40,610 nucleotides of DNA from a virus, in the IMG/VR virus record IMGVR_UViG_3300032053_000180, positions 1-40,610 of that record. One strand, given 5' to 3'. Below are positions 409 through 40,610 of this stretch, in pieces; positions within the stretch are counted from its first letter, which is position 1, and each line of letters begins with the position of its first letter. Made by a program: the position numbers and the translations under genes. The notes under the pieces are model-generated. The model worked only from the letters and a program-made list of their open reading frames with translations. It was not told where the DNA came from and searched no databases.

Positions 409-463
409 GACCACGAGATCGGGGCGTGGGAGTTCGGGCGGGCGGTGGGGCGGATGCTGGGAA

Positions 464-490
464 TGCGGATTGCGGAATGCGGATTGCGGA
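464..490 (+). repeat. Short tandem word repeat (AATGCGGATTGCGG type)
   Basis: Two copies of the 14-base word AATGCGGATTGCGG lie head to tail just before the nucleotidyltransferase start. The same word family recurs as a 21-bp tandem pair at 11718-11759. Such words are dispersed in PVC-group genomes as I remember them. Confidence 0.6.
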
Positions 491-503
491 AGGAAGGCGG
501 CCG

Positions 504-1504: not shown

Positions 1505-1723
1505 ATGAAATTTGACCGGGCGATCGCGCTGCTGGGGTTTGTGGGGGCCGTGGTGCACGAGGGGAATGCGCGCCAGGTCCGCATGACCGGGGACGCGAAG
1601 GCGGCCGCGGAACACGAGGCGGTGGCGGAGGAGTTCCGGGCGGCGATCGAGGCGCTCAAGACGATTGGGGAGTTCGAGGAGACGACGCAGAAGATGAAGG
1701 AAGAGGAGAAGAAGACGAGATGA
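1505..1723 (+). CDS. Small helical hypothetical protein
   Basis: A 72-residue, almost entirely helical protein (MKFDRAIALLGFVGAVVHEG, then EHEAVAEEFRAAIEALKTIG) ending in a Lys/Glu-rich tail. ATG 1505 is 8 bp after the previous stop, and the gene overlaps the terminase start by ATGA. Its position directly before the large terminase is where a small terminase could sit, but there is no helix-turn-helix, so I do not assign that role. Confidence 0.6.
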   Translation: MKFDRAIALLGFVGAVVHEGNARQVRMTGDAKAAAEHEAVAEEFRAAIEALKTIGEFEETTQKMKEEEKKTR

Positions 1724-3828
1724 GCGGATTTGTGCCCACAGCGCATCCGGTGTTGAGGACCCCCACGGCGGCCCAGGCGGCGGCGTGGGGGGAGAAGCGG
1801 TGGATCAAGGAACTGGACCGGCGGGAGGCGCTGATCGAGAACGAGAAGAAGGATCCGCTGCGGTTTGGGTGGGAGCCGCCGGTGTGGGCGCTGGCGGATG
1901 CGCTGCGGGGGAAGCCCTGGGTGGACGCGGAGTATGCCGCCCGGATCCGGAAGGCCCTGGGATTTTCGCGGGCGGTGCCGGTGCTGGCGATCCTGGGAGG
2001 GAACCGGGCGAGCAAGACGGAGTATGCGGCGAAGCGGCAGATGATGCTGATCCAGGACAAACGCGAGGCGATCGCGTGGGCGTGCCACCAGACGGGGGAG
2101 GATTCGATCGCGGTGCACCATAAGCTCTTCTGGAAGTTCATGCCGCCGGAACTCCGGCGGACCGTGAAGGGGGTGAAGGAGTATATCGCGTACAAGCAGA
2201 AGACAGGTTTCTCGGAACACAAATTCGTGCTGCCCAACGGGAGCGAGGAAACGTTCAAGCAGTACGCGATGGACCGGGAGAACGCGGTGCAGTCGGCCAG
2301 CATTGACGACTGGTGGGCGGACGAGCTGGTGCCGCCGGACTGGATCGACGATCTGCTGGTGCGGATCGCGGACCGCAACGGGAGCGGGCTGATCACGTTT
2401 ACGCCGATCCACGGGTATAGCCCGACGGTGCGGATGCTGCAGGACGGGGCGGAGGTGGTGATGAGTCAGACGGCGTTTCTCCTGCCGAAGGACGGGGGGG
2501 AGCCGGATGTGGCGCGGGCGCTGGGGTTTGGCCCATCCTCCGCTGCCGGCGGCGGAGCCGCCGGAGCTACGGAGGGCGATTCCGCCGATGCGGCGGAATC
2601 GGAAATGCGGGCGGCGCACAAGGAGGGGCGGTGGAGCGTGCCGACAAGGTTCGAACTGCGCGGGCCCGCCGGCGGCGGCAAGGGATTGCCGCCCTCCAAG
2701 GGCGACCAGGCGGAGCGGCTGGTGGCGATCGAGCCGGCGGTGCCGAAGGGGCGGGCGTTCGAGACGATGCCGCGGGTGATGCGGTGCGTGGACGATAACT
2801 TCGGGATTCTCTTCTTCTGGACGCTGGACAATCCGTTTGGAAACCCGCCGGCGGTGATCAGCCTGACGGCGGGGAAGTCGGCGGACTTCAAGAAGGAGCG
2901 GTTCTACGGGTTCGCGAGCCGGACGATGAGCGCGCGGTTTCCGAGGTTCTCGAGGAAGGTGCACGCGGTGCCGGCGAGCGCGATCCCGGAGGAGGGGACG
3001 AACTATTTCTTCAACGATCCGGCGAGCGGGAGGAATTTCTGCATGCACTGGTACCGGGTGACGAAGGAGGCGAGCTTTCTGGTGCAGGAGTGGCCGGGGA
3101 ACTACGACATTCCGGGCGTGGGCGTGCCGGGGCCGTGGGCGATCCCGGACGGGAAGAAGCTGGACGGGCGGCCGGGGCCGGCGCAGAAGAGTTTCGGGTT
3201 TGGGTTGCTGCGGATGAAGCAGGAGATCGCGCGGATCGAGGGGTGGGAGGATGCGAAGCGGGGGAAGGCGAAGGAGAAGGCGGAAGGCGGAAGGCGGAAG
3301 GCGGAAGAGAAGAGCAACCGCGAATCACGCGAAGAAAACGCGAAGGAAGAGCAGCGGGATCGGTTTGGATTGGGGGGGAGCAAGCGGACGCTGGTGGAGC
3401 GGGAGGTGGAGCGGTGGGACGAGCGGAACGGGGCGGATTGGCGGATCTTCGAGCGGTACCTGGACAGCCGGGCGGCGAGCACGCCGCGGGTGGAGAAGGA
3501 CCGGCCGCGGACGCTGCAGACGGATTTCGAGGACATCGGGCTGGACTTCCTCTTGACGCCAGGGGACGAGATCGAGGAGGGGGTGAACCTGATCAATGAC
3601 GCGCTGGACTATGACCCGGAGGAGCCGCTGGGGTTCTTCAACAAGCCGAAGTTCTACGTGTGCGAGGACTGCAAGAACGCGATCTATAGCCTGGAGACGT
3701 GGACGGGGGCGGACGGGCAGAAGGGGGCGTGCAAGGATCCGGTGGATTTGATGCGGTACTTCTTCTTGAGCGAGTGCCGGTATGTGGCGGACGATTTCTG
3801 GAAGACGGAGGGAGGGGGGCATTATTGA
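1720..3828 (+). CDS. Terminase large subunit
   Basis: A 702-residue DNA-packaging motor. The Walker A-like motif GGNRASKT is at about residues 93-100, Walker B WWADELVP at 198-206 (D201, E202), and the coupling motif ITFTPIHG follows. The C-terminal nuclease is suggested by RYLDSRAASTP (around 580) and DFEDIGLDF with later acidic residues (INDALDYD, KDPVDLMRYF). About 55 residues between the two domains come from dispersed elements: element A at 271-295 (PSSAAGGGAAGATEG reading) and a second palindrome around 318-326. A basic run at about 515-545 is coded by RKAEGG- and NRESRE-type words. The ATGA overlap fixes the start. Confidence 0.93.
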   Translation: MSGFVPTAHPVLRTPTAAQAAAWGEKRWIKELDRREALIENEKKDPLRFGWEPPVWALADALRGKPWVDAEYAARIRKALGFSRAVPVLAILGGNRASKTEYAAKRQMMLIQDKREAIAWACHQTGEDSIAVHHKLFWKFMPPELRRTVKGVKEYIAYKQKTGFSEHKFVLPNGSEETFKQYAMDRENAVQSASIDDWWADELVPPDWIDDLLVRIADRNGSGLITFTPIHGYSPTVRMLQDGAEVVMSQTAFLLPKDGGEPDVARALGFGPSSAAGGGAAGATEGDSADAAESEMRAAHKEGRWSVPTRFELRGPAGGGKGLPPSKGDQAERLVAIEPAVPKGRAFETMPRVMRCVDDNFGILFFWTLDNPFGNPPAVISLTAGKSADFKKERFYGFASRTMSARFPRFSRKVHAVPASAIPEEGTNYFFNDPASGRNFCMHWYRVTKEASFLVQEWPGNYDIPGVGVPGPWAIPDGKKLDGRPGPAQKSFGFGLLRMKQEIARIEGWEDAKRGKAKEKAEGGRRKAEEKSNRESREENAKEEQRDRFGLGGSKRTLVEREVERWDERNGADWRIFERYLDSRAASTPRVEKDRPRTLQTDFEDIGLDFLLTPGDEIEEGVNLINDALDYDPEEPLGFFNKPKFYVCEDCKNAIYSLETWTGADGQKGACKDPVDLMRYFFLSECRYVADDFWKTEGGGHY
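2533..2600 (+). repeat. Palindromic element A, copy 1 (in frame in terminase)
   Basis: Outer arms CCATCCTCCGCTGC and GAGCTACGGAGGGC flank the inner stem CGGCGGC/GCCGCCG (loop GGA). A second perfect 10-bp hairpin follows at 2578-2600 (GATTCCGCCG, loop ATG, CGGCGGAATC). It is read as PSSAAGGGAAGATEG. Confidence 0.85.
2674..2693 (+). repeat. Small perfect hairpin in terminase
   Basis: GGCGGCAA and TTGCCGCC form a perfect 8-bp stem with a four-base loop. It codes for part of GPAGGGKGLPPSKGD, which does not resemble terminase sequence, so it is probably another inserted element. Confidence 0.5.
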
Positions 3829-15852: not shown

Positions 15853-15892
15853 GCTTGCTGCGCTCGGAGGCCCGCGCTCCGCGGCGCCAGGG
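15853..15892 (+). repeat. Dispersed element C, copy 2
   Basis: GCTTGCTGCGCTCGGAGGCC through GCGGCGCCAGGG fills most of the 51-bp gap between two genes. Compare 1231-1270 and 38424-38464. Confidence 0.7.
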
Positions 15893-15901
15893 AGACGGGA
15901 T

Positions 15902-22177: not shown

Positions 22178-25100
22178 GTGCCAGAACAGGACGTCTATGC
22201 TGAGTTTGCCGATCCGGTAGGGCCGAGCGCGACAGCGGTTGCAGATCCGCCGGATCCGTATGCCGAGTTCGCGGACCCGGTGGCCCCGGCGGCGCCGGCG
22301 GGCGCGACCGAGGCGGATCCCTATGCCGCGTTCGCGGACCCTGTGACTCCGAGCGCGACGCCCCGGGGGCAACCTGATCCCTATGCTGAGTTCGCCGATC
22401 CGGTGCAGCCGGAGAAGCCCTACAGCCTGGGCGCGGACGTGTCGGCGGCGCCTGGGGAGGCGGGGCGAGGGTTTGCGCGAGGCGGGGCGAGCGTGAGTGC
22501 GGGGCTGGGCGGCCTTCTCGAGGCCGCGGGCCGGGCGGGTTCGCGGTTCGAGTCGAATGTGGCGAGGGAACTGCAAATGCGGTGGTTCTATCCGGGCGGG
22601 AAGTGGAACCCCGTTCTCTCGGCGTTCGGGATGAAGGAGCCGGAGCCGGGGGCGGAAGGGGATACGCTGCGCCAGGGCGGGACGGCGGTGACGCGGGGAT
22701 ACAAGGCGGTCGGGGAGGCGGGGCAGAAGTGGGCGGAGAAGATGGAGACGATCCAGGCGGGCCCGGAGCTGGCGCCGCGGCCGGAGGGGCCTTACTCGAA
22801 AGTGGCAGGGATCGTGTGGCAGGCGGCGCCGATCGTGACGGGCCTGATCGCGACGCGAAACCCGACCCTGGGCGCGAGCCTGTATGCGGCGGTGGTGGGC
22901 GGCGAGGGGTTTCACAGGGCGAAGGCGGCGGGGCTGGACGATACGGAGGCGCTGGGGGCGGGTATCTTGCACGGGGCCGGGGCGTACGCCGGCGGACGGG
23001 TGAACCTGGAGAACATCTTCCTGAAGGATACGGCGGTCCGGGATGCGGTGGCGCGGTTTGGGTTCAACAAGGTGGCGGGCTGGGGGGTGCAGTACGCGAA
23101 GGCGGCCGGGGCGAACGTGGCGGTGAACGAGGCGCAGCAGGTGTACGATAACGCGGTCCGCATGGGCTACGACGGGAATGCGAAGGCGTTCGATGGGTTG
23201 ATGGATGCGGCGATCATGGGGCTGCTGTTCTCGGCGCAGCACGCGCCCGGGAGCGCGGCGCGGGCGTTCCGTGAGGCGAACGTGAAGACGGTCCGGGCGA
23301 ACCTGGAGAAGGCGTTCGGGGCGGAGAACGTGAAGCCGTATGGGGAGACGGGCTTTGAGGTGGCGAATGGGGAGCGGCGAACGATCGTTGAGTTTGTGAA
23401 GCATGAGGCGGAACTGGGTCCGCGGGACGTGGAGGGGTTGGCGACAAGCGCGAGGGAGAAGTACCCGAAGCTGTGGGAGAAGAGTCTGGCGGAATCGGGC
23501 GGGGACGAGGCGGCGGCGAAGGTGAAGGTGGCGGATTTGATGACCCCGCCGGCGCAGACGCGGGCGAATGTGACGATCCGGGATCCGGCAACCGGGGCGC
23601 TGGTGGATGTGGATGGACTGATTCAACTGGTGGCCGGGCGGGCAACCGTGGGGCAGACGCGCCATGAGCTGCTGCATGACTTGGCGAGGTTGTCCGGGGC
23701 GAGGAAGGAAGGGGATCTGCTGGTGGACCCGGTGTCGGGTGAATCGCTCAGGGAGGAGGCGCTGGCGGAGGCGCTGGAGAAGGGGATCGATCATCCGATC
23801 ACTCGGCGGGTGAAGGATGCGGCGCTGGGGATCGTGAATTTGTTCCGGACGGAGAAGCAGGAGAGCCCGTTCCAGACTGCGCGGCGGCTGATGCGGGGGA
23901 TGCAGGAGGAGGCGAAGCTGTCGGGGGAGGCGGCGGAGCCGAAGGCGCTGAGCGCGGAGGAGTCGGCGGAGACGGCCGCGGCCGCGGAGGCGGCTGCTAA
24001 GGCGTTCGATGCGCGGGCGGTGGAGCCAGGGGGCGGGCCGGGCGGGATCCCGCTGCTAGAAGGACCGCCGAAGCGGGTGACGGGGCTGGTGGACCAGTTT
24101 GGGCGGACGATCGCAGGGACGGAGAACCTGCCTGTGCGGGCGGCGGTGGAGCCACGGAATGCCCCGGCACAGGGCCAGGGCGCTAGCCAGGCCGAGAAGC
24201 CGATTACTGCCGTGTCAGCACAAAGGCCCCCCCCCTCGATCGCGCGTCCTGGGGCATCCTGGGCGGCCGAGACGCCAGGGAAGGAGGCGAAAGTCGGTGG
24301 ATCGTGGAAAGTGGTGGAGGCGGCAAGCCTTCTGACGAGCGATAAAGCGGGCTATGATAAGGCGTTGCAGCCGCGGAACCGCTCCACCGTCGCGAGCCAG
24401 GAGCAGGTGGCGAGTATCGCGAGCGAGCCGGATCCGGGCCGGCTGGCGGATTCGCCTACCACGGACACGGGGGCACCCCTGGTGGACCAGAACGGCCAGG
24501 TTGTCAGCGGGAACGGGCGGGTGATGGGGTTGCGGCAGGCGTACGCGGGCGGCCGGGCCGGGCGGTACCAGGCGGCGGTGCTGGCCAGGGCGAAGGAGCT
24601 GGGACTGCCGGAAGCGGGCTTGATGAAGGAGCCGGTGCTGGTGCGGGAGCTGTCGGATTCGGGCGGGAAGACGGTGACGGACATCGCAGAGTTGTCGAAC
24701 CGGAGCCAGGTGATGGCGCGGTCGGCGGCGGAGCAGGCTGAGGCGGATGGGAAGATGCTGGTGGAGTCGGGCGCGATTGACCTGTTCAAGCCGGACGCGG
24801 TGGGGACGATCCGGACGTCGAGCAACACGGAATTCCTTCGGGCGTTCGTGCAGGGGACGGGCGACGCGGGGTTGCGGGGGGCGAAGGGCGGGTTCGCGCC
24901 GGACATCGACGGGCGGGTGCGCCGGGCGGTGCTGGCGGCGATCCTGGGGGAGCACGAGCAGGGGCGGCAGATCGTGCAGGATGCGATCGAGCGGGCGGAC
25001 GAACTGGGGATCCGCCGGCAACTGGATGGCGTGATGGCGGCCGGTCCGGAACTGGTGAAACTGGCGAAGGGGAAGCCGGCCTACGATCTGAGGCCGGCGC

Positions 25101-28100
25101 TGGCGCAGGCGGTCCGGGACCTGGTGGAATTCAAGAAGCAGGTGGCGTCCGGCAAGATGAAGACGCTGGAGGACTACCTGGGCCAGGGTGAGATGTTCGA
25201 CACGGGCCGGACGCCGGCGAGCGAGGCGATCCTGCGGGCGCTGGACGAGAGCGGGACGATCAAGGGGACTCGGGAATGGCTGGACCGGTACACGGCGCTG
25301 GCGGCGAAGATCGACGTGACGACCGGGGATATGTTCGGGACCCGGGCGGCGACGCGGGAGGAGTTGCTGGGGAAGGCGCTGAAGACGAAGATTGAAACGC
25401 AGAAACCCTTTATGCCTCTGCCTTCGGGCGAGGCTCAAGCCCCGGCAGCCGCCCGTAAGACGGCGGCACCTACCCCCGAGGGGGCGGAGGCCCACAAGGC
25501 ACCGATCACCAAAGCCGGGGCTGTCTTTGCAGACTGGCCGAAGGACTTTGGCGGAGCCAACCCCAGCGATGACGCGATGAGATTCGGAATCGAACACCAA
25601 GCGCCGGAGCACCTGGCCGAGATGGAGCGACGGTACCAGGCCAGCCTGGCACGGGGCGATCCGCTGATCGCAGAGGCGGAGGCGGCGCTGGCACGAGGGG
25701 ACCGCGCAGAAGCCACGCGCATTACGGAGGCGATGGAGCGTGTGCCCCAGCTGGCGCAGTTCTGGCGCGAAGCACGATGGGCGGCCAATCAGGCCTTGAC
25801 AGGGAAAACGGAATCCGATATTCTCAGTCTCAGAACAGGAGAGCAATATGCTGACCGAACAGGAAATCCGCCAGAAGATCGCCCGGGTGCGGCAACAACT
25901 CGCGGAAGGCCGGGCCTGGCTGGAACAGTGCCAGAGGGAACGGCCGGACCTGGCCGCCCTGTACCGGCGCAAGTACCCGGACAAGGCGGAAAGCCTCTCC
26001 CCCGCGAACCCCTGGGCGCTCCACTCCACAAAGGCCTGACGCCACCCCCGGCGACCGTGCGAGAAGCCGCGGCGGCTATGTCTCTGCCGGCAGAAGAACC
26101 GCGCCCGGGACAACCGATAACCGAAGCTGCCCCGCCTCTCTCTCTCCACCAGCGCGAGGCGCGCTCCGCCAAGGATATCCGCCGGACCTACTTCATTGAA
26201 TCCGTACTGAACCCGGACGGGCAGCGGGAATACTTTGCCGGGGACGCGGAGGGAAACGAGACTCCCCGCTTCTTCTCCGCGGAGAAGGCGGCCGCCTACT
26301 ACGAACGCGAGCAGCGGCTGAAGCAGATCGAGTTTCTGCGCGGGCAACTCTCCCGGACTTGGTTTCAGCGATCCCGCCTGCCGGTTGATGAAATCTTCCC
26401 CGAGTATGACCCCGCGATCATCCGGGAAGCGGCGCGGGAGAATGCCGCGAACGAGCCGATCCGCTATGCGGTGGAGGCGAAAGGCCCGGAAGAAGGCGAT
26501 ATTCTCTCAGAGTCCGAGTACCGGGCCACGCTTCGGGCTAACTATGTCGATAAGGAAGGCAAGGTCCTGGCGAGCAGCCGCGAGGCGCCAGCGATCCCGA
26601 TGGGGCTGCGCTTGGGGATGTGGCGCCGGGACGATATGCCCCTGAATCACGGCCGGGAGCTGGCGCAGCTCCGGCTGGTGGATCCCAACACCTTGAACCT
26701 GGCGGAGGACCTGGTGGAGACGAACCAGCAGGGCCGAGGATGGGACGCGGATAGATATGCGCAATGGTTTCGAGAGGGCAAGGCCCCGCCGCCCGTGGAG
26801 ATCGTGGAAACCGACAAGGGCACCCTGAAGGTTACCGATGGGCACCGACGCGTGGCCGCCGCGAAACGCAACGGCCAGCCCGTCCTGGCTTGGGTTTCTC
26901 CCGCAATGGATCACCCGGATCCGAACTATGCGGGCGTCAAGACGGGACTGACGTACGAAGCCTGGAAGAACGGAACGGCGAAGAGGACGGGCCCCCTGAC
27001 GGGCGGTTTCTCCGATACGTCCATGCAGTATCCGGAAGGTTTCCCCCGCTACGCGGTGGAAGCGAAGGCCGGGGAGGAAGAGCGGTTTTCGTTCCAACGG
27101 GCCGGACCCCGCAACTTTGGCAAGTGGACGATCCCCTACGTGGACATGGGAACAAAGGCGGAAATGGCGACGCTGGCCGATCGCTTGAACCGCTCCGGAT
27201 TGTCGGAGCGTGAAGTCTATGACGCGGCCCGGGCGGGACGCTCCACCCTTGAGTCCTTGCTGAGTGAGCGCACGCGCTACGCCGTGGAGAAGAAGGCGGG
27301 AGAGGAAGAAGCTGGCGCGGCGAAGCCGCGCTTCGCGAATCCGATGGTGACGACCGAGGCGCGGAGGTGGGCCGCCGCGCAGCGGACGGCCCGGGAAGCG
27401 GCGGGGTTGCCGCCGCACACGACGGATGCGGAGATCCGGGCGAAGGCGGACGCAATCCTGGCCGATAAGCCGGGAACATGGTCGGCGTTGCGGCGGGGCG
27501 AGTTGAATATGGTGGATGACGCGGCGAAGATGCAGGCGGCCAAGCGGCTCCTGGACGAGAAGGTGTCCGCGGCGATCCAGGCCGGCGATGCGTCCGGGCT
27601 GGCGGAGGCGGTCGAGGCGTATGGGCGGTACGAGGAGGCCGGCAGCCGGATGGGCGCCGCCTTCCGCGAGCGGCGGGACTGGACTCTGACCCCGGAAGAC
27701 CATAACCGCCAAGCGTTGACGGATGCGCTGCTGAAGCCGCCGGAGGCCGTGAAGACGGAACTGGCGAAGGCGAAGACGCCGGCGGAGCGGACCGCTATCT
27801 CCGAGCGGGAGGCGGTCCGGATCGCGGGGACGGCCAGGGCCGTCGAGCAGCGGACCGGACTTAACCCGGCGCGGCTGAGCAAGGCGACGCTTCGGGACTC
27901 GGCGACCGTGGCGGAACTGATCCGGGAGATCAATGCGCGGTCCGCACGGGGCGGAGATAAGGCCTTCGAGTACTGGCGGAGCGCGATCCTGTCCGGGCCG
28001 GGGACGCAGGTAGGTAATATCACGGGCAACACGGCGGCCTTTGTGTGGGATCGGACGATCCAGAAGACGGGCGAGGCGTTGCTGAATCTGGTACTGCGCA

Positions 28101-29716
28101 AGCCGGAGGCGACACAGTTGGGCGAGCTGGGGCCGATGTGGCGGGCGACGTTCGGATCGATGGGCAAGGCGGGGCGCCAGGCGTTGCTGGCGTTTTCGAC
28201 GGAGCTGCCGGTGATGGAAGGGATGAAGGTTGAGGAGAGCGGGCCGGCGATCGTGGGGACGAAGGGGCGAGTGATCCGGCTGCCCCAGCGGCTCCTGCTG
28301 GCGGCGGATGAGTACTCGAAGACGGTGATCTATGACGGAACAATCGCCGCGCTAGCCTACCGAACCGCCAAGGCCGAGGGGCTGCGGGGCGAGGACCTGG
28401 GGGCCCGCCAGGAGGAACTCCGGACCAATCCGACCGATGAGATGATGACCGCGGCCATGGCTGAGGCCAAGCGCCTGACGTTCCAGGAGAAACTCGGCGC
28501 GATCGCTGGGGGCATCCTGCAGATGCGGAAGAATGTGCCGGGCCTGCGCTATGTGGCGCCGTTTGTCACAACGCCGGCTAACATCGTGAAGATCGGCATC
28601 AAGAAGACGCCCCTGGGGACCGCGGCCCTGCTCTGGAAGGCGGCGCGGGGCGAGTACCGCGGCGAAGGGGCGGCACTGACCCGGGACGTGGCGGAGCAGA
28701 TCATCGCCTGGGCGGCGTTCGCCGGCGTCGGGGCCATGATCGACGATGAAGACGGAGAACCGCGAGTCACCGGGAACCGGCCGCCCTCGAATCTGCCGGC
28801 GGGGCAACGTGCCCTGCAGCAGAAACACTATCCCCCGCAGTCGATCCGGCTCGGTGGGCGCTGGTTCAGTTACGCGCGGATAGAGCCGCTGGCCACGAGC
28901 CTGTCCCTCATGGTGGATTCCTGGGATCTGATCCGGAACCCGGGTGGCCGGAGCGTGGAGGAACAACTCTGGAAGGCGTGGAATAGTGTAGCCGGCCAAG
29001 TGCGAGACAAGACTTTCCTGCAGGGCCTTGGGGACATCCTTCACGCGATCGAGGACTCCGGCCGGGAGGGTGCGGTCCGCAACTGGCTCACCAATTTCGC
29101 GGCATCCTGGGTGCCCAACATTGGCCGGACGACCATGCGGGCGACGGATACGGAGATCCGGGATATGCGCCTGCGGAAGCAGGACCAGGAAACGCTGGGC
29201 AGCAAACTGGGCCAGGTGGGGCGGCAAGCCCTGCAGAAAGCCCTGCCGCTGCCCGCCCTGGCACCGTCGCCGCGCCGAGACTGGCTGGGCCAACCAATTC
29301 AGAAAACGGAACGCCTGGGCCCGGCGACGGACGTGGTTTGGCGCATACTGAGCGGCATGAAGATCCAGGAAGTCCCCGACCCGGAGGCATTGACAACGGC
29401 CCTGGACCGTTTCGTCTGGAACTACAACCAGAAGGCCGAGAAGAACGGCTGGACCGATCAATGGTGGCCCGGGGCGGCGCGTAACGAAATGACCCTGCCG
29501 GGCTATCCCGGGACGGACCGCAAGCGGTACATGACTGACGACGAGTTCGAGCGTTTCCAGATCCTCCGGGGCGAGTTGTTTCTGGCGGCCGCTGGCCGTT
29601 ACCACTGGGACCCGGTAGATCCCAAGCAGACCCACATGCGGCACCTGAAGCACCTCTACGAGCTCGCCACTGATCGGGCCCGCCGCGAGGCGATCGAGGC
29701 CCGGACCCGCCGCTGA
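22178..29716 (+). CDS. Giant polyvalent virion protein (ddrB-ParB-like domain, HExxH motif, ParB-like domain)
   Basis: A 2,512-residue protein from GTG 22178 (GGGGAG upstream). Four YA(E/A)FADPV motifs at residues 7-76 with 20-21 residue spacing. Hydrophobic segments near 205-245. HELLH at 496-500, a zinc-peptidase signature. A ddrB-type ParB-superfamily domain at about 710-1060 (LQPRNRSTVASQEQVASIA, SGNGRVMGLRQAY). A second ParB-like segment at about 1486-1575 (TDGHRRVAAAKRNGQ). Three RYAVE(A/K)K linkers near 1429, 1624 and 1700. A C-terminal 600-residue region (GTQVGNITGN, YVAPFVTTPANIVKIGIKKTPLG) like large phage ejection proteins. Co-injected multi-domain effector or core protein is inferred. 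Confidence 0.78.
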   Translation: MPEQDVYAEFADPVGPSATAVADPPDPYAEFADPVAPAAPAGATEADPYAAFADPVTPSATPRGQPDPYAEFADPVQPEKPYSLGADVSAAPGEAGRGFARGGASVSAGLGGLLEAAGRAGSRFESNVARELQMRWFYPGGKWNPVLSAFGMKEPEPGAEGDTLRQGGTAVTRGYKAVGEAGQKWAEKMETIQAGPELAPRPEGPYSKVAGIVWQAAPIVTGLIATRNPTLGASLYAAVVGGEGFHRAKAAGLDDTEALGAGILHGAGAYAGGRVNLENIFLKDTAVRDAVARFGFNKVAGWGVQYAKAAGANVAVNEAQQVYDNAVRMGYDGNAKAFDGLMDAAIMGLLFSAQHAPGSAARAFREANVKTVRANLEKAFGAENVKPYGETGFEVANGERRTIVEFVKHEAELGPRDVEGLATSAREKYPKLWEKSLAESGGDEAAAKVKVADLMTPPAQTRANVTIRDPATGALVDVDGLIQLVAGRATVGQTRHELLHDLARLSGARKEGDLLVDPVSGESLREEALAEALEKGIDHPITRRVKDAALGIVNLFRTEKQESPFQTARRLMRGMQEEAKLSGEAAEPKALSAEESAETAAAAEAAAKAFDARAVEPGGGPGGIPLLEGPPKRVTGLVDQFGRTIAGTENLPVRAAVEPRNAPAQGQGASQAEKPITAVSAQRPPPSIARPGASWAAETPGKEAKVGGSWKVVEAASLLTSDKAGYDKALQPRNRSTVASQEQVASIASEPDPGRLADSPTTDTGAPLVDQNGQVVSGNGRVMGLRQAYAGGRAGRYQAAVLARAKELGLPEAGLMKEPVLVRELSDSGGKTVTDIAELSNRSQVMARSAAEQAEADGKMLVESGAIDLFKPDAVGTIRTSSNTEFLRAFVQGTGDAGLRGAKGGFAPDIDGRVRRAVLAAILGEHEQGRQIVQDAIERADELGIRRQLDGVMAAGPELVKLAKGKPAYDLRPALAQAVRDLVEFKKQVASGKMKTLEDYLGQGEMFDTGRTPASEAILRALDESGTIKGTREWLDRYTALAAKIDVTTGDMFGTRAATREELLGKALKTKIETQKPFMPLPSGEAQAPAAARKTAAPTPEGAEAHKAPITKAGAVFADWPKDFGGANPSDDAMRFGIEHQAPEHLAEMERRYQASLARGDPLIAEAEAALARGDRAEATRITEAMERVPQLAQFWREARWAANQALTGKTESDILSLRTGEQYADRTGNPPEDRPGAATTRGRPGLAGTVPEGTAGPGRPVPAQVPGQGGKPLPREPLGAPLHKGLTPPPATVREAAAAMSLPAEEPRPGQPITEAAPPLSLHQREARSAKDIRRTYFIESVLNPDGQREYFAGDAEGNETPRFFSAEKAAAYYEREQRLKQIEFLRGQLSRTWFQRSRLPVDEIFPEYDPAIIREAARENAANEPIRYAVEAKGPEEGDILSESEYRATLRANYVDKEGKVLASSREAPAIPMGLRLGMWRRDDMPLNHGRELAQLRLVDPNTLNLAEDLVETNQQGRGWDADRYAQWFREGKAPPPVEIVETDKGTLKVTDGHRRVAAAKRNGQPVLAWVSPAMDHPDPNYAGVKTGLTYEAWKNGTAKRTGPLTGGFSDTSMQYPEGFPRYAVEAKAGEEERFSFQRAGPRNFGKWTIPYVDMGTKAEMATLADRLNRSGLSEREVYDAARAGRSTLESLLSERTRYAVEKKAGEEEAGAAKPRFANPMVTTEARRWAAAQRTAREAAGLPPHTTDAEIRAKADAILADKPGTWSALRRGELNMVDDAAKMQAAKRLLDEKVSAAIQAGDASGLAEAVEAYGRYEEAGSRMGAAFRERRDWTLTPEDHNRQALTDALLKPPEAVKTELAKAKTPAERTAISEREAVRIAGTARAVEQRTGLNPARLSKATLRDSATVAELIREINARSARGGDKAFEYWRSAILSGPGTQVGNITGNTAAFVWDRTIQKTGEALLNLVLRKPEATQLGELGPMWRATFGSMGKAGRQALLAFSTELPVMEGMKVEESGPAIVGTKGRVIRLPQRLLLAADEYSKTVIYDGTIAALAYRTAKAEGLRGEDLGARQEELRTNPTDEMMTAAMAEAKRLTFQEKLGAIAGGILQMRKNVPGLRYVAPFVTTPANIVKIGIKKTPLGTAALLWKAARGEYRGEGAALTRDVAEQIIAWAAFAGVGAMIDDEDGEPRVTGNRPPSNLPAGQRALQQKHYPPQSIRLGGRWFSYARIEPLATSLSLMVDSWDLIRNPGGRSVEEQLWKAWNSVAGQVRDKTFLQGLGDILHAIEDSGREGAVRNWLTNFAASWVPNIGRTTMRATDTEIRDMRLRKQDQETLGSKLGQVGRQALQKALPLPALAPSPRRDWLGQPIQKTERLGPATDVVWRILSGMKIQEVPDPEALTTALDRFVWNYNQKAEKNGWTDQWWPGAARNEMTLPGYPGTDRKRYMTDDEFERFQILRGELFLAAAGRYHWDPVDPKQTHMRHLKHLYELATDRARREAIEARTRR
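24238..24261 (+). repeat. Repeat D, copy 1 (identical 24-mer, in frame in giant gene)
   Basis: These 24 bases, containing GCGTCCTGGGGCATCCTG, are identical to 31664-31687 near attP, and similarity continues a few bases beyond. Here they are read as the SIARPGASW part of a linker just before the ddrB-like domain. Confidence 0.75.
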
Positions 29717-31965: not shown

Positions 31966-33291
31966 ATGAGATCGGTCGCCCCGAAAACTCAGGTACCCGA
32001 AACGCCGGCAGCGCCGGCTCCGACCTCTCCCCTGCAGCACGACGAGTCCGGATACTACGTCAGCACGCAGGTGTCCGGCAAGGAGATTTTCCGCCGGCTC
32101 AAGGCGACGGAGGAAGGCGCGGCGCGGTGGGAGGCGGAGAAGCTCCTCGCGGATCTGCGCCGGCGGATGCGAAACCTATGGCTGCGCGGCGGCGTGTGGT
32201 ACGTGGTCGCCAAGATCCACGGGCGGCGGATCTCTCGGTCGCTCGAGGCTCCCGAGGCCGAGCGCGACCTGGCGCGCACCAAGGCGCGGGCCGTGATCGC
32301 GGCAGCACGGGAGCGGAGATGGGAAGCCCTGGATGACACGAAGCTCCGCAAAGGCTACGCTACCCTGGGCGAGCTGGTCCGTGTGTTCAAGGCGGAGGCG
32401 GCCCGCCACGATCTCCGGCCGTTGACGGTCACCAACTATGTGAGCTGCCTGGGTTTGGTCCTCGACAAGACAAGCGTGGCAGAGGTGAGCACGGAGCTGT
32501 TGAGTGAGAAGACAGTGGATGCCTACGTGGCGCGGAAGCTGGCGGAGGAAACTCCGGCGAACCGGGCGAGACTCAGGCGATCCATCAACTCAACCGTGAA
32601 CCAGGCGCGGGGCCTGTTTGGAGAAGACTGGGCAATGGGCGCTTACAAGAAGGCGGGGCTGCGGCTGCCGGCGAGCATCGAGGACTTCCGGGATGCCTTT
32701 GTGGTCGAGGCGCCGCTCAAGCGCTATGTGATGACCGAGGAAAGGAAGCGGCTCCTGGCCAAGACCCACCAGGCGGCGGCCGCGTTCCGCGGGGAGAATT
32801 CGGACTTGTGGCCCGTCTATCTGTTGTGTTACTACTTGGCCATGCGTGCGGGGGAAGCGGCCGCGGCGCGGTGGGCGTGGATCGTGGCGGATCCGGATGG
32901 GAGATCCTGGATGCAGGTGATCAATCGGCCGGGCGAGTTTCGGGCGAAGGGGAGCGAGGGGAAGATCCCGATACCCAAGCAGGTGGTGACGTGGCTTGAG
33001 GAGCTGCGCCGGCGCCGCGGTGGCGATTTCATTCTTCCGGGCCCGCACAAGACGGCACGCCGGGCCCTGGTGGTGAAGACCTTTGCGGCCTGGATGCGGA
33101 CGATCGGATGGGACGCGGCGCGCTACCCGAAGGCGGCCCACGAACTGAGGGCAGCACGCGGATCCGAATGGTATACGCTCCGCGGCCTGGAGGCTGCAGC
33201 AAAGTGGCTTCGCCATAAGGATCCCGCCACAACCGTCCGTTTTTATGCGGACTTCACGTCGCAACCGCCAACCCTCGAGGTGGGTGAATGA
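31966..33291 (+). CDS. int: Tyrosine recombinase, phage integrase
   Basis: A 441-residue protein. The C-terminal catalytic domain has the full set: R294 (LAMRAGEAAAARW), K328/K333 (AKGSEGKIPIP), H392 and R395 (HELRAAR), H417 (LRHKDPATT) and nucleophile Y427 (VRFYAD). Residues about 120-220 look like the core-binding SAM-like domain (LGELVRVFKAEAARHDLRPLTVTNYVSCLGLVL), and an arm-binding domain with strands (GVWYVVAKIHGRRISRSLEAP) precedes it. I see no extra insertion between motifs like that of integron integrases. It probably acts at the half-tRNA attP 135 bp upstream. Confidence 0.88.
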   Translation: MRSVAPKTQVPETPAAPAPTSPLQHDESGYYVSTQVSGKEIFRRLKATEEGAARWEAEKLLADLRRRMRNLWLRGGVWYVVAKIHGRRISRSLEAPEAERDLARTKARAVIAAARERRWEALDDTKLRKGYATLGELVRVFKAEAARHDLRPLTVTNYVSCLGLVLDKTSVAEVSTELLSEKTVDAYVARKLAEETPANRARLRRSINSTVNQARGLFGEDWAMGAYKKAGLRLPASIEDFRDAFVVEAPLKRYVMTEERKRLLAKTHQAAAAFRGENSDLWPVYLLCYYLAMRAGEAAAARWAWIVADPDGRSWMQVINRPGEFRAKGSEGKIPIPKQVVTWLEELRRRRGGDFILPGPHKTARRALVVKTFAAWMRTIGWDAARYPKAAHELRAARGSEWYTLRGLEAAAKWLRHKDPATTVRFYADFTSQPPTLEVGE

Positions 33292-37557: not shown

Positions 37558-37919
37558 ACGGGATGCCCGATTTACGGCCGGCGTGGAGCCGGACCTGGTG
37601 CGTGTGCTGGAAGAGCGGGAGCGGGTTCGGCCTGTTCACGCTGGGGGACGTGGAGAAGCTGAACGCGACCCTGGTGGCCCGCGGGGAGGTGGGCTACCAG
37701 GTGGTGGCGCTGTGCCCGGACCTGGCGGCGGCGCAGGAGAAGGGGCGGGAGTGGAAGCGGCGAAAGAAAGAACAGGCGGCGACGGGAACAAACAACCCCG
37801 GACCGGCCGGATTGGCGAAGGCCGAGGCCAGGCCGAGCCTAACGGCCGGGATCCGGGGCGATGAGTTGAGCGAGGGCATCGCGAGCGATAAGCGAGCGCT
37901 CGTGGAAGGAGAAGGATGA
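37554..37919 (+). CDS. Hypothetical protein between helicase and ASCH genes
   Basis: A 121-residue protein coupled by ATGA on both sides. The first 65 residues contain WSRTWCVCWKSGSGFGLFTLGDVEKLNATLVARGEVGYQVVALCPD, a compact domain with paired Cys; then a basic helix (KGREWKRRKKEQ) and a low-complexity tail. No family recognised. Confidence 0.55.
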   Translation: MNGMPDLRPAWSRTWCVCWKSGSGFGLFTLGDVEKLNATLVARGEVGYQVVALCPDLAAAQEKGREWKRRKKEQAATGTNNPGPAGLAKAEARPSLTAGIRGDELSEGIASDKRALVEGEG

Positions 37920-38506
37920 AAGCATTGAGTATTAGACAGCCGTGGGCGTGGCTGATCGTTCGGCCGGACATCACGGACCCGATCATGCGCGCCACGGCCC
38001 ACGTGTTGAAGGACTTTGAAAATCGGGACTGGGGGAACTTCGCGGCGGGGCGCGCCTTCCGGGGCCCGGTTTTGGTCCACGCGTCGAGCGGAATGACTCG
38101 CGACGAATACGCGGCGTGCGAACTCTTCATTGCCGGGTTCTCCGACATCCTTCTGCCGCCGGCCCGGGCCTTACTGCGCGGCGGGATCGTCGGGCGAGCG
38201 GTGATTGATGACTGCGTTACACAGGCCCCTTCGCCATGGTTCACCGGAGAGTACGGCTTGCATCTGCGCGATGCCGAGCCGCTGCCGTTCCGGGCGTTCA
38301 AGGGAGCGCTGGGATTCTTTGAGGTGCCGGCCGAGCAGCCCGCCGTGCCGGACCGCTGCCGGGATTGCCCGCACCTGCAGCTGCCAGACAGCCAGCGGCC
38401 GTGCATCGGGTGCAAGAGGGGGGGCTTGCTGCGCTCGGAGGCCATCGCTCTCGCGGCGCCGGGGAACGCCCCCGCTCATGGTGGCGACGGGAGGAGCCTA
38501 CCATGA
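37916..38506 (+). CDS. ASCH-domain protein
   Basis: A 196-residue protein. SIRQPWAWLIV at residues 4-14 with KDFENRDW (around 32-39) and GPVLVHAS is the ASCH/PUA-like signature, an RNA- or modified-base-binding fold common in phages. CRDCPHLQLPDSQRPCIGC (around 145-165) adds four Cys, a probable zinc knuckle. The C-terminus is coded by element C copy 3 and by attC-like site 0; the stop (38504-38506) overlaps the start of cassette 1. It could be the cargo of an older cassette or the last fixed phage gene before the array. Confidence 0.75.
   Translation: MKALSIRQPWAWLIVRPDITDPIMRATAHVLKDFENRDWGNFAAGRAFRGPVLVHASSGMTRDEYAACELFIAGFSDILLPPARALLRGGIVGRAVIDDCVTQAPSPWFTGEYGLHLRDAEPLPFRAFKGALGFFEVPAEQPAVPDRCRDCPHLQLPDSQRPCIGCKRGGLLRSEAIALAAPGNAPAHGGDGRSLP
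38424..38464 (+). repeat. Dispersed element C, copy 3
   Basis: GCTTGCTGCGCTCGGAGGCC through GCGGCGCCGGGG, in frame at the ASCH C-terminus. Its last bases form the left part of GGGGAAC, the opening motif of attC-like site 0, so the insertion may have replaced the original motif. Confidence 0.7.
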
Positions 38507-38521
38507 AGCGGATTGTTCGAC
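38461..38521 (+). other. attC-like site 0 (first of the array)
   Basis: GGGGAAC at 38461-38467 and GTTCGAC at 38515-38521 bracket an imperfect hairpin: CCGCT pairs with AGCGG, CATGGT with ACCATG, GGC with GCC, with an extrahelical A and T. The plan is the same as sites 3 and 4. No cassette start complementary to GGGGAAC is found upstream. It carries the stop of ASCH and the ATG of cassette 1. Confidence 0.6.
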
Positions 38522-38634
38522 GATTGATTGCATGGCCGATCTTGGCCTTGTTTGACGTTGCTCTCTGTCTGTTGGGATGGAACTGGAGAAAACTGCGAGC
38601 CGAGTCGAACGTGAAAGCTGAGGGTTTGCGATGA
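38503..38634 (+). CDS. Cassette 1: small membrane protein
   Basis: A 43-residue protein. The ATG at 38503 and GAGGAG upstream lie inside attC-like site 0; the crossover falls within the Val-5 codon. One transmembrane segment (LIAWPILALFDVALCLLGW) follows a basic MKRIVRR, and the tail is basic. The stop overlaps the start of cassette 2's gene. Function unknown; small membrane proteins in phage cargo often affect exclusion or lysis timing. Confidence 0.55.
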   Translation: MKRIVRRLIAWPILALFDVALCLLGWNWRKLRAESNVKAEGLR

Positions 38635-38673
38635 GCGCAGCGAAGAGCAATACCCTCCGGCGCTTGGTTGGGG
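38604..38673 (+). other. attC-like site 1
   Basis: GTCGAAC (38604-38610) is complementary to the cassette 1 start GTTCGAC (38515-38521). The site ends GTTGGGG. Stems: AAGC with GCTT, GGGT with ACCC, TGC with GCA, leaving unpaired bases and a loop. It contains the stop of cassette 1 and the ribosome site and ATG of cassette 2. Confidence 0.75.
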
Positions 38674-38810
38674 CTGCTATGGCCCGAATTGCCAGCCGGA
38701 GACCAGGGAACTCCAGACTCGTTTACGACCGTGCGACGAGGACGATACGGATACGAGGTCAGCGCGGAGAAGACAAGGGTGACACAGGATTGCACACACA
38801 TGACTGGTAG
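38631..38810 (+). CDS. Cassette 2: small basic protein
   Basis: A 59-residue protein from ATG 38631, with GAGGG 6 bases upstream, both inside site 1; the crossover falls in the Val-13 codon. The sequence is Arg-rich (SAAKSNTLRRLVGAAMARIASRRPGNSR, then RATRTIRIRGQRGEDKGDTGLHTHDW). Its TAG ends just before the opening motif of site 2, so the ORF fills the cassette exactly. No family recognised. Confidence 0.5.
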   Translation: MSAAKSNTLRRLVGAAMARIASRRPGNSRLVYDRATRTIRIRGQRGEDKGDTGLHTHDW

Positions 38811-38878
38811 CCCCAACACCGGCCTTCACCGGACCGAACCCGCCGCGGGTTCGGGTACGGTGCGAGGCTTGGTTGGCA
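38811..38878 (+). other. attC-like site 2
   Basis: AGCCCCAAC (38809-38817) pairs over 9 bases with the cassette 2 start GTTGGGGCT at 38667. Internal stems: GCC with GGC, CACCG with CGGTG, and a perfect 9-bp CCGAACCCG with CGGGTTCGG. The site ends GTTGGCA. It is the only site with no start codon for the next cassette. Confidence 0.78.
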
Positions 38879-38916
38879 ATTCTGAATCATCGAAAGGGAA
38901 ATGACATGGAGGACGT

Positions 38917-39165
38917 ATGAAACAGGAAATGATATGGGCAACGCAAGCTGGAATCTCGCTGCACGTCGAGATGCTGGAGAAGTCGGCGCGGTTCAGGATC
39001 GAACGTGGCCCCGAGACGCTTGCAGTGGCAGAGATTGAGGACTGGAAGTTCTGCCGCGTCATACAGATTCTCGGCGGGATCGCGCCACAGATACGCAAGG
39101 AAGGCAAGACGCCTCTGCGTGCCAACGCGGCGCTCAAGAGCGCCGACGAAGGCGGCGTATCTTGA
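38917..39165 (+). CDS. Cassette 3: hypothetical protein
   Basis: An 82-residue protein from ATG 38917 with GGAGG 4 bases upstream, the only cassette gene whose start lies inside its own cassette. It looks like a small alpha/beta domain (ISLHVEMLEKSARFRIERGPETLAVAEIEDWKFCRVIQILGG). The last 14 residues (ANAALKSADEGGVS) are encoded by site 3. No family recognised. Confidence 0.55.
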   Translation: MKQEMIWATQAGISLHVEMLEKSARFRIERGPETLAVAEIEDWKFCRVIQILGGIAPQIRKEGKTPLRANAALKSADEGGVS

Positions 39166-39180
39166 AGCGCATTGTTCGGC
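39120..39180 (+). other. attC-like site 3
   Basis: TGCCAAC complements the cassette 3 start GTTGGCA (38872-38878); the site ends GTTCGGC. Stems: GCGCT with AGCGC, CAAGA with TCTTG (an extrahelical A between them), CGCC with GGCG. It carries the cassette 3 stop and the TTG start of cassette 4, overlapping as TTGA. Confidence 0.8.
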
Positions 39181-39365
39181 CTGATGGCGTCACGCGACGG
39201 GCGCAAGAAGCGTGCGCCCACTGGCTCGCTGAGTGTATTCGCCTCGGCTGGTCAAAGGCGCAACTCGATGACCTCGAAACGATGTGGTGGCAGCACCACG
39301 ATAAGCGTGGCGAGCTGACGCCGAACAAAGGCGCCACCTTCGGCGCCGGAGGCGACGTAAGGTGA
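39162..39365 (+). CDS. Cassette 4: small helical protein
   Basis: A 67-residue protein from TTG 39162 inside site 3; its first residues MKRIVR match those of cassette 1 because both come from similar site arms. The pattern AQEACAHWLAECIRLGWSKAQLDDLETMWWQHHDKRGEL resembles small phage proteins of unknown function as I recall them. The tail (NKGATFGAGGDVR) is encoded by site 4. Confidence 0.55.
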   Translation: MKRIVRPDGVTRRAQEACAHWLAECIRLGWSKAQLDDLETMWWQHHDKRGELTPNKGATFGAGGDVR

Positions 39366-39380
39366 GCGCACTGGTTCGCA
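39320..39380 (+). other. attC-like site 4
   Basis: GCCGAAC complements the cassette 4 start GTTCGGC (39174-39180); ends GTTCGCA. Stems: GCGC with GCGC, CACCTT with AAGGTG, one extrahelical A between them. The previous stop and the next GTG start overlap as GTGA within the right arm. Confidence 0.8.
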
Positions 39381-39652
39381 ATTCCATCATTCGCCGGGAC
39401 GTGTTCAACCCGCGCAACTCGACTTGCGGCTCGGCACCGATTGCCGACTTGTCCTCGCACTGGTGGTGGACTGACAACAGCGATCCGGCCAGCCTCTACA
39501 TTCACGCCTGCCGCTGGTCGGACAGGACCTATCATCGGGTGTGGCCGCGTCCGATACCGGGCTACACCTGCAAGCGAATCGAGATGAAGAACCGAATGCA
39601 CGGGGCCAAGCTGTTATGGCTCTACGATGCGAACGCCGGAGGTGTGCGTTGA
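39362..39652 (+). CDS. Cassette 5: hypothetical protein
   Basis: A 96-residue protein from GTG 39362 in site 4; the crossover falls in the Val-5 codon. It is rich in Trp, Arg and His (SSHWWWTDNSDPASLYIHACRWSDRTYHRVWPRP) with three scattered Cys. The tail DANAGGVR comes from site 5. No family recognised. Confidence 0.5.
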   Translation: MSALVRNSIIRRDVFNPRNSTCGSAPIADLSSHWWWTDNSDPASLYIHACRWSDRTYHRVWPRPIPGYTCKRIEMKNRMHGAKLLWLYDANAGGVR

Positions 39653-39686
39653 GCGATAGCGAATACGCACCACCTCCTTGTTCGCC
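39628..39686 (+). other. attC-like site 5
   Basis: TGCGAAC complements the cassette 5 start GTTCGCA (39374-39380); ends GTTCGCC. Stems: GGAGGTG with CACCTCC and TGCGT with ACGCA, separated by one extrahelical C on the right arm. It contains the overlapping stop/start TTGA. Confidence 0.8.
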
Positions 39687-40272
39687 GTTTCCGATACGGT
39701 GGGCATGGGGGTGGCCGTCGGCAGACACGTTCGACTGTCCGCCGATTGGGGAATGGGTTCGGAAGTGGATGGATGGCCGAGCCGTGAGCGTTGACCCGTT
39801 TGCACGGAACCGCCGATGGGCAACGCACACCAACGACTTGAACCCGGAAACGAAAGCCGAGCACCACATGGACGCGGAGGACTTTTGCCGAATGTTGACC
39901 GAGAAGGGCGTTGCCGCCGACGTTGTGCTCTTCGATCCGCCGTACAGCCCGACGCAAATGAAGGCGGTTTACGATAGCATCGGGATCAAGCACGATGACG
40001 GCGGAAGCAACGCCAAGCTCTACGCCCGCGTGCGGCGGGCGTTTGAGCCGATGGTGAAGGTCGGCGGCGTGGTTCTTACGTTTGGATGGAACACGCACGG
40101 CATGATGACGAGCAGAGCCTACGCCCGCGAGGCACTGCTTGTCGTGTGCCACGGGCAAGCGCACAACGACACGCTTTGCCTTTGTGAGCGCAAGGTGCAA
40201 GGCGGGTTGTTTGATACGGCGAACGCCCGAAATCAGGGGCTTGCGCCCCAGGAGAAGACCGATGACAAATGA
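39649..40272 (+). CDS. Cassette 6: DPPY-type DNA methyltransferase (putative)
   Basis: A 207-residue protein from TTG 39649 in site 5. VVLFDPPYSPTQ (D96-P97-P98-Y99) is motif IV of amino-group DNA methyltransferases, typical of adenine-N6 enzymes. SVDPFARN (around 50) followed by HTNDLNPETKAEHHMDA may provide the SAM-binding strand and acidic loop, though the glycines of a classical motif I are missing. VGGVVLTFGWNTHGM lies after the catalytic motif. Likely role is protection of phage DNA from host restriction; activity is uncertain because of the weak motif I. Confidence 0.7.
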   Translation: MSDSEYAPPPCSPFPIRWAWGWPSADTFDCPPIGEWVRKWMDGRAVSVDPFARNRRWATHTNDLNPETKAEHHMDAEDFCRMLTEKGVAADVVLFDPPYSPTQMKAVYDSIGIKHDDGGSNAKLYARVRRAFEPMVKVGGVVLTFGWNTHGMMTSRAYAREALLVVCHGQAHNDTLCLCERKVQGGLFDTANARNQGLAPQEKTDDK

Positions 40273-40318
40273 GCAGAACGCGAGCGGGGCGCAAGTACCC
40301 TGCATTTCGTTGTTGGCG
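40218..40318 (+). other. attC-like site 6
   Basis: Nine bases ending GGCGAAC (40216-40224) complement the cassette 6 start GTTCGCCGT at 39680. Long stem: CGAAAT with ATTTCG, CAGGG with CCCTG (extrahelical C), CTTGCGCCCC with GGGGCGCAAG. Ends GTTGGCG. At 101 bp it is as long as large chromosomal-integron sites. Confidence 0.85.
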
Positions 40319-40528
40319 TGCCCGTTCTGCGGGGGACCGGCCAAGATCGACAGCATGAAGTTGTTGTGGTGGTCACGCCGCGAATACCTTGCGCGATGCA
40401 CACTCTGCTCGTGTCTCGGACCCGCGCCGGACTGGTCAAAGACGCCAGAGGAAACTGCGGGCGCGTGGAACACCCGTCACGCCAACGTTCCGGGTGAGTC
40501 TGCCTTGCCCGGAGAAAGGAAAGCATGA
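40262..40528 (+). CDS. Cassette 7: Lar-like (restriction alleviation) zinc protein
   Basis: An 88-residue protein from ATG 40262 in the loop of site 6, overlapping the methyltransferase stop by 11 bp. CPFCGG (around 25-30), CTLC (around 50) and a closing AGAWNTR are the Lar-family pattern (two CxxC pairs, then WN-x-R). Lar proteins reduce type I restriction or boost modification, which fits the neighbouring methyltransferase cassette. Many relatives are annotated by motif only, so the function is inferred. Confidence 0.65.
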   Translation: MTNEQNASGAQVPCISLLACPFCGGPAKIDSMKLLWWSRREYLARCTLCSCLGPAPDWSKTPEETAGAWNTRHANVPGESALPGERKA

Positions 40529-40576
40529 ACAAGAAAGCGACGCGGGGCAAGGCTAGACTCGACCCGATTGTTCGGT
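40480..40576 (+). other. attC-like site 7
   Basis: CACGCCAAC (40478-40486) complements the cassette 7 start GTTGGCGTG over 9 bases. Stems: CGGGT with ACCCG, GAGTCT with AGACTC, GCCTTGCCC with GGGCAAGGC, with extrahelical G and T on the right arm. Ends GTTCGGT. It carries the cassette 7 stop and the next ATG (ATGA). Confidence 0.85.
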
Positions 40577-40610
40577 GCCAGTTCTGCGCGTTTGCGGATG
40601 ACGAATGGCG
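40525..40610 (+). CDS. Cassette 8: zinc-ribbon protein, N-terminal part (continues at 1-169)
   Basis: From ATG 40525 in site 7, with GGAG and AAAGG upstream. The 28 codons here give KKATRGKARLDPIVRCQFC, crossing the recombination point in the Val-16 codon. The frame is still open at the window end and continues at base 1, giving an 84-residue protein with CxxC and DWCGEF motifs. Confidence 0.75.
   Translation, partial: MNKKATRGKARLDPIVRCQFCAFADDEW

Follow-up and report, generated by a model that had tools for sequence, protein, structure and literature searches.

Phages are known to carry functional attC sites, the sites of integron cassettes, and phage clusters of such sites lacking an integrase (CALINs), some of them with DNA methylase cassettes, have been described, for example, in Tetrasphaera phage TJE1 (Qi et al. 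2023, PMC9892861). Here we analyse the viral record IMGVR_UViG_3300032053_000180 (40,610 nt; this whole stretch is called the window), in which an initial annotation had noticed an integron-like cassette array continuing over the record's end and had stated that it knew of none described as a module of phages, which was too strong in view of the clusters published in 2023. We find that the window very probably carries an array of eight integron cassettes without an integrase of its own, that is, a CALIN, with reversed geometry. Like the phage CALINs described previously, it is an integrase-less attC cluster with methylase cargo and extrahelical bases in its sites. In contrast to those clusters, however, which have few sites per phage, and to TJE1, in which the genes have the ordinary orientation to attC, the window array has eight sites and its genes are reversed. 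The published account includes neither natural reshuffling between sister phages, nor a frame shared over the crossover, nor an array locus conserved in a phage family (PMC9892861).

The array was first recognized from eight segments, each beginning with a GTTNNNN heptamer and closed by its complement. All eight pairs proved to be exact reverse complements (38515/38604, 38667/38811, 38872/39120, 39174/39320, 39374/39628, 39680/40218, 40312/40480 and 40570/121), and those at 38667, 39680, 40312 and 40570 do reach 8–9 bases, as read from the sequence. For the array analysis, the ends of the record were treated as joined (circularized); an open reading frame running from 40525 to 169 stays open over this join (40610/1). 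A scanner that links GTTNNNN...NNNNAAC pairs through hairpin-sized gaps found a chain of eight in the window, compared with at most four when the region was shuffled 2,000 times under a second-order Markov model and never more than four in 60 shuffles of the whole window. Chains of three, which occur in many unrelated loci, are at chance level and were set aside as evidence. The scanner is weak on class 1 plasmid arrays, in which the R boxes are not exact complements, and these arrays were hence used solely as covariance-model controls. The imperfect stems proposed between the pairs are also real: the hairpins fold at a mean of −20.2 kcal/mol, compared with −12.5 kcal/mol with shuffled interiors (z = −15), and show inverted-repeat R and L boxes with an unpaired spacer and extrahelical bases on one arm. 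Together, the eight sites lie within 2.3 kb, all on the + strand, an arrangement that falls within the definition of a CALIN as at least two close sites on the same strand. As to its extent, the annotated pairs stand, but the array begins further left, at a hairpin that had not been counted (38461–38521).

A close relative of the window phage, IMGVR_UViG_3300031772_000097 (L004), found through its replicative helicase, allowed us to follow individual units. The flanks of the two arrays are 94% identical on the left and 99.9% on the right; between them lie eight units in the window and 11 in L004. Six units are common to both phages, and none has the same neighbours. Three of these are 100% identical: unit 2 (38610–38816, 207 bases), unit 3 (38817–39125, 309 bases) and unit 7 (40224–40485, 262 bases) correspond to L004 units 10, 2 and 7, respectively. 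The other three have diverged, with unit 4 (39126–39325) at 73% identity to L004 unit 5, unit 5 (39326–39633) at 92% to unit 1 and unit 8 (40486–40610 plus 1–126) at 86% to its homologue, unit 3. Unit 1 (38467–38609), which also has AA|C boundaries, was not found in L004, and homologues of unit 6 (39634–40223) sit in arrays of other phages. Directly outside the shared units, merely 6–13 of 30 bases match, and there is therefore no homology to drive ordinary recombination. The breakpoints fall exactly at AA|C on the + strand (G|TT on the − strand) in 6/6 shared units, and at the left array boundary, GGGGAA|C (38461–38467), the flanks of the two phages are identical to the left of the junction and differ to its right. 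These alignments show, at the level of the sequence, that the units behave as wholes: they have been acquired and lost, put into a new order and transferred between phages. The initial annotation had proposed exactly such an acquisition or exchange of genes as cassettes, and comparison with L004 and with a third phage (L142, below) bears this out; whole cassettes are indeed swapped, but at AA|C and not at the G|TT points that it had listed.

The position of the crossover determines how the genes are oriented. As the heptamers pair within a unit, they are compatible with both orientations. The hairpin to the left of each gene, however, travels with the unit body in 6/6 shared cassettes (identities of 1.00, 1.00, 0.54, 0.78, 1.00 and 1.00), whereas the right-hand hairpin stays behind (0.41–0.53 in the five units measured; unit 8 was not measurable). 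Thus, the cut on the + strand is AA|C, and the genes are antisense to their own attC sites, opposite to the orientation first proposed. The mobile unit on the + strand reads [C-hairpin-GTTNNNN-body-NNNNAA]; on the minus strand, the same unit is a classical cassette, TTNNNN...NNNNAAC-hairpin-G, with a G|TT crossover. The extrahelical bases agree with this assignment. In known attC sites, as in our aadA1 control, folding of the bottom strand places them on its 3′ arm. In the + strand hairpins, one- or two-base bulges are distributed between the 3′ and 5′ arms at 13:0 in the window and 15:1 in L004; in TJE1, the published case with genes on the + strand, they lie on the 5′ arm, opposite to the window. 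In its fold, the window + strand therefore resembles the bottom strand of known attC sites, which is the recombinogenic one. Cassette genes usually, although not obligatorily, run in the direction of the attC top strand; those of the window, by contrast, lie on the bottom-strand side. The genes are truly on the + strand, as indicated by protein matches for units 6 and 7 and by a third-position bias in the shared units 4, 5 and 8, in which the differences between the two phages at codon positions 1, 2 and 3 number 10, 6 and 33, with third-position differences making up most of the divergence of unit 4.

To compare the hairpins with known attC sites, we trained a covariance model, R1, on eight short hairpin sequences taken from the window and L004. 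This model matches two held-out window sites, hairpin 1 (38461–38521, expectation value (E) 1.3e-7), which has 3′-arm bulges, and hairpin 7 (40218–40318, E 1.8e-7). Hairpins 3 (38811–38878), 4 (39120–39180), 5 (39320–39380) and 6 (39628–39686) fold likewise and were training sites. Hairpin 2 (38604–38673) is weak in every test (E 0.014 with R1), and hairpin 8 (40480–40576), which folds with three 3′-arm bulges, gave no R1 match. All eight lie on the + strand, corresponding to the attC bottom strand. In an independent set, R1 recognized the class 1 integron attC sites of aadB and aadA2 (E 9e-5 to 6e-4) on the strand opposite to the genes and one site of TJE1 (5e-4), again opposite to its gene, whereas its matches in the window, L004, the contig L088 and the phage record G010 are on the gene strand. 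Against 0.79 Mb of other phage loci, it found nothing under E 0.8. A model built purely from phage sites thus recognizes class 1 attC sites, and the window sites share with class 1 cassettes (aadB, aadA2 and aadA1) the order of the attC boxes, the bulge geometry and the GTT core. On these likenesses of structure and sequence, we read the window hairpins as divergent attC sites, in line with the integron-type sites initially claimed. The window gave no match to Rfam at gathering thresholds.

The genes of the array are tied to the hairpins by a shared reading frame. Reading AAC as a codon defines, at 21/21 junctions of the two sister phages, a frame that stays open for 60 codons or more on the upstream side; on the downstream side, it closes with a TGA overlapping an ATG, GTG or TTG that lies within the hairpin or immediately beyond it. 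When the two remaining frames are considered, the window junctions show such a stop/start overlap in 7/18 cases. In 12/19 units, the gene opened by the overlapping start keeps this frame on leaving its unit, the exceptions being units 2, 3 and 7 (the last with an 11-base overlap) and L004 unit 4. Across all the arrays examined, the longest read-through genes are in the AAC frame in about 29 of 31 cases by our own tally; on the contigs L087 and L088, genes mostly stop at or before the box. The window genes, all on the + strand, illustrate the arrangement. The gene of unit 1 (38503–38634, 43 aa) starts on the stop of the upstream gene, that of unit 2 (38631–38810, 59 aa) stops before the AAC box, and that of unit 3 (38917–39165, 82 aa) has its own start within the body and reads in frame through AAC. 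The genes of unit 4 (39162–39365, 67 aa), unit 5 (39362–39652, 96 aa) and unit 6 (39649–40272, 207 aa) start in their hairpins with TTG, GTG and TTG, respectively, the TTG in hairpin 6 accompanied by a Shine-Dalgarno-like GGAGGT; hairpins 7 and 8 carry a ribosome-binding-site-like sequence and an ATG in the loop. The genes of units 7 and 8 span 40262–40528 (88 aa) and 40525–40610 (on to 169), respectively.

The genes flanking the array join this scheme: the phage gene on the left (37916–38506, + strand, phrog_3193) has its 3′ end within unit 1, and the phage gene on the right (166–408, + strand) has a TTG start on the stop of the last cassette gene. A relative of the left gene is annotated, in a Pseudomonas phage, as coding for an ASCH-domain protein. 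Most genes start in their own hairpin, and most leave the unit in one frame and stop in the hairpin of their neighbour. As they read through the crossover in a fixed frame, shuffling also exchanges C-terminal tails; unit 7, for example, ends in ANVPGESALPGERKA in the window, and the same tail ends unit 3 in L004.

Part of the cargo could be identified. The unit 6 gene encodes a DNA methyltransferase (phrog_11619, 6e-39) and the unit 7 gene a Lar-like restriction alleviation protein (PF14354, 2e-9; phrog_599, 3e-8), and L004 contributes two further methylases, one of the C5 type (PF00145, 1e-25) and one of the Dam type (PF05869, 1e-6). The unit 8 gene encodes a small Cys-containing protein. Judged by these domain matches, the cargo identified in the window and L004, which comprises methyltransferases of three kinds along with a Lar-like protein, suggests a fast-evolving anti-restriction locus. 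The cassette proteins were not found in 84,980 bacterial and archaeal genomes; a methyltransferase profile gave one match in the same genomes, in Geminisphaera colitermitum TAV2. In a phage collection searched by DNA, the sole match was a short stretch of the ASCH gene.

Arrays of this kind extend beyond the two sister phages. The 47-kb record IMGVR_UViG_3300037011_000898 (L142/L148) opens with 127 bases that match the end of unit 3 at 100% identity and stop at TGCCAA|C. Beyond this point lie a new attC site (R1 E 6e-9) and a gene that, by our own reading of a DPPH-type motif and with no database match, looks like another methyltransferase; the first 6.1 kb of L142 gave no further BLAST match to the window or L004. 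In an 80-member set of relatives of the methyltransferase, oriented by that gene, all 21 R1 matches are on the gene strand. The more distant IMGVR_UViG_3300020171_000059 (G010) belongs to the broad phage group of the window on the evidence of protein identity (helicase 45%, the protein encoded at 1720–3828 41% and the major capsid protein 31%). It has at least 13 attC matches between the helicase and structural genes, the same genome position as the window array. Thus, the locus is conserved, whereas its content is different. Long arrays were also seen on two contigs of metagenome 3300037882, L119 (7742–11030) and L131; L119 has five consecutive GTTCGCT boxes and looks like a young or host-type array.

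We did not find intI in cis in the window, and its array is a CALIN, not a complete integron; nor was an integron integrase (IntI) found in L004, the L142 record or L087–L089. In the phage record IMGVR_UViG_3300010400_000043 (G012), by contrast, which carries terminase and portal genes, a reversed array is immediately followed, on the gene strand, by an IntI (TIGR02249, 268 bits against a cut-off of 265), and the gene after this IntI is 31% identical to window 339–1040. In Geminisphaera colitermitum TAV2 (contig L237, 8254–10202), an IntI (274 bits) comes immediately after a C5 methyltransferase, and the surroundings are phage-like; TAV2 is a Verrucomicrobiota genome, and this locus may hint at the host group of these phages. 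When flipped, the G012 locus is a classical platform, with intI divergent from the array and the attC top strand pointing away from intI, and it departs from that platform only in the direction of its genes, which point towards attI. The junction between array and intI in G012 reads AACAAGG-N11-CCTGTT, and the right end of the window array reads AACAAGG-N11-CCTTGT with the same spacing. This right-boundary site (CGAA|CAAGG-N11-CCTTGT, 121–149) is conserved in L004, and we regard it as a candidate attI. Because the genes point towards the attI position, a Pc promoter there could not drive the cassettes.

Several observations weigh against reading the window array as a set of integron cassettes that share one frame. 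The window record has no match to TIGR02249 in its 40.6 kb, and all comparisons are between metagenomic contigs. The R boxes are GTT[CG]NNN and not the classical GTTRRRY, which is a typical consensus rather than a strict one. A second, narrow covariance model (R2), built from eight class 1 and TJE1 attC sequences, found no site in a genome-wide search of the window; run unfiltered on the array, it placed 39121–39180 and 39628–39686 (both + strand) at the top at an E of only 0.2–0.4. This model does match sites on the L087 contig (2e-5). The frame rule is not universal, as the unit 2 gene stops before the AAC box and the unit 3 gene starts inside the body. Moreover, ordinary genes of the window phage have AAC in frame in 55% of cases, which makes the frame weak evidence by itself; the stop/start overlap carries more weight.

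The window has no IntI, and it has to be weighed whether a different recombinase reorders the units, for example the tyrosine integrase of the phage itself, adapted to use the hairpins. The gene at 31966–33291 (+ strand; phrog_1, 1e-23) encodes the sole tyrosine recombinase identified in the window, and L004, which like the L142 record lacks an identified IntI, has a version that is 51% identical. However, the sites resemble known IntI substrates in both structure and sequence, related reversed arrays adjoin genuine IntI, and comparison of the phage integrase with those IntIs gave nothing beyond a 15-residue match at chance level, so we consider this explanation unlikely. We likewise rejected the phage integrase as an IntI, given this match and the lack of a match to TIGR02249. 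The divergence of the two integrases, in genomes that are elsewhere 94–99.9% identical in the flanks, marks them as another swapped module. It might also be supposed that the hairpins are RNA elements that serve translational coupling only, with reordering by homologous or illegitimate recombination, as starts and stops do overlap in the hairpins, which the operon mRNA would carry. Yet the junctions have no homology beyond the AAC box and the breakpoints are exact in every shared unit; coupling would not need exact heptamer complementarity within a unit, and part of unit 3 is present in the otherwise unrelated phage L142, all of which makes this account very unlikely.

Ordinary cassettes in the usual orientation, with a crossover at the originally listed G|TT points and each gene moving with its right-hand hairpin, would fit the symmetric complementarity of the heptamers and have a precedent in the cassettes of TJE1. 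For the window and L004, however, this orientation is already refuted by the travel of the left hairpin and not the right, and the extrahelical bases on the 3′ arm of the gene strand and the covariance-model matches on that strand speak against it; we give it next to no weight. Misjoining of metagenomic contigs at repeated sites is just as improbable in our assessment. Both records are metagenome contigs, and the two sides of the 40610/1 join of the window sit 42 bases apart in L004. However, nearly all the hairpins differ, leaving no shared repeat for misjoining; each phage has unique units, the flanking frames are intact, and a third contig (L142) and a distant family member (G010) show the same pattern. 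The missing 42 bases (14 codons, in frame) lie exactly at 40610/1, in the unit 8 gene, which is otherwise nearly identical, its protein matching that of L004 save for the 14-aa gap, and the window record was probably trimmed or mis-closed there.

For the array of integron cassettes that we favour, an IntI-type integrase acting in trans, from a host integron or a co-resident phage of the G012 type, would recombine the folded + strand, which could be exposed as single-stranded DNA during phage replication or entry. Transcription would come from the upstream phage operon and not from an integron Pc promoter, and translation would be handed from gene to gene by termination and reinitiation. With the exit frame fixed and translation coupled in the proposed manner, any cassette order would stay expressible, and the cargo of methyltransferases and Lar-like protein could be swapped in response to host restriction. 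As a broader reading, the evidence leans, with some reservation, towards a phage-specific branch of integrons that occupies a conserved locus in a phage family, with its own integrase downstream in some related phages; in such a branch, the genes would be antisense to attC, start and stop in the hairpins and share one frame, allowing anti-restriction genes and tails to be reshuffled while remaining expressed.

Two further features of the window were noted. A dispersed repeat of 42–52 bases (GGCTTGCTGCGCTCGGAGGCC...CGCGGCGCCGGGGA) occurs at 38423–38466, 15853–15893 and 1220–1272. The first, 44-base copy ends at the left boundary of the array, where it might have served as a secondary integration site. 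The region 22178–29716 encodes a 2512-aa protein with a ddrB-like ParB domain (PF18763, 3e-31).

Comparison with other integrons highlights what sets this geometry apart. In class 1 integrons, the genes lie on the attC top strand, read away from attI and are driven by Pc, whereas the window genes occupy the attC bottom strand and run in the direction of the attI position. The reversed intI of Treponema (PMC3607928) offers a partial likeness, as it is co-directional with the cassette genes; there, however, transcription of intI runs towards attI and the genes point away from it, whereas in G012 the genes read towards attI and intI is downstream of the array. Fused cassettes (PMC4670013) are similar in the placement of translation signals relative to attC and in the polycistronic reading of cassettes, but the case presented there is a rare fusion after loss of attC, whereas in the window most intact attC sites bear the stop/start overlap. 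A literature search covering non-subscription papers other than preprints found no account of arrays in which every gene is antisense to attC, of a frame shared over the crossover or of natural reshuffling between sister phages. The array thus provides natural evidence for integron-type shuffling within and between phage genomes, beyond the mere carriage of attC sites. Its inverted reading, in which expression starts from a phage operon and crosses the attC hairpins in one common frame, would relieve the dependence of cassettes on Pc, which can be tested. If the locus is truly a fast-evolving anti-restriction locus, it would tie integrons to the arms race between phages and their hosts from the phage side.

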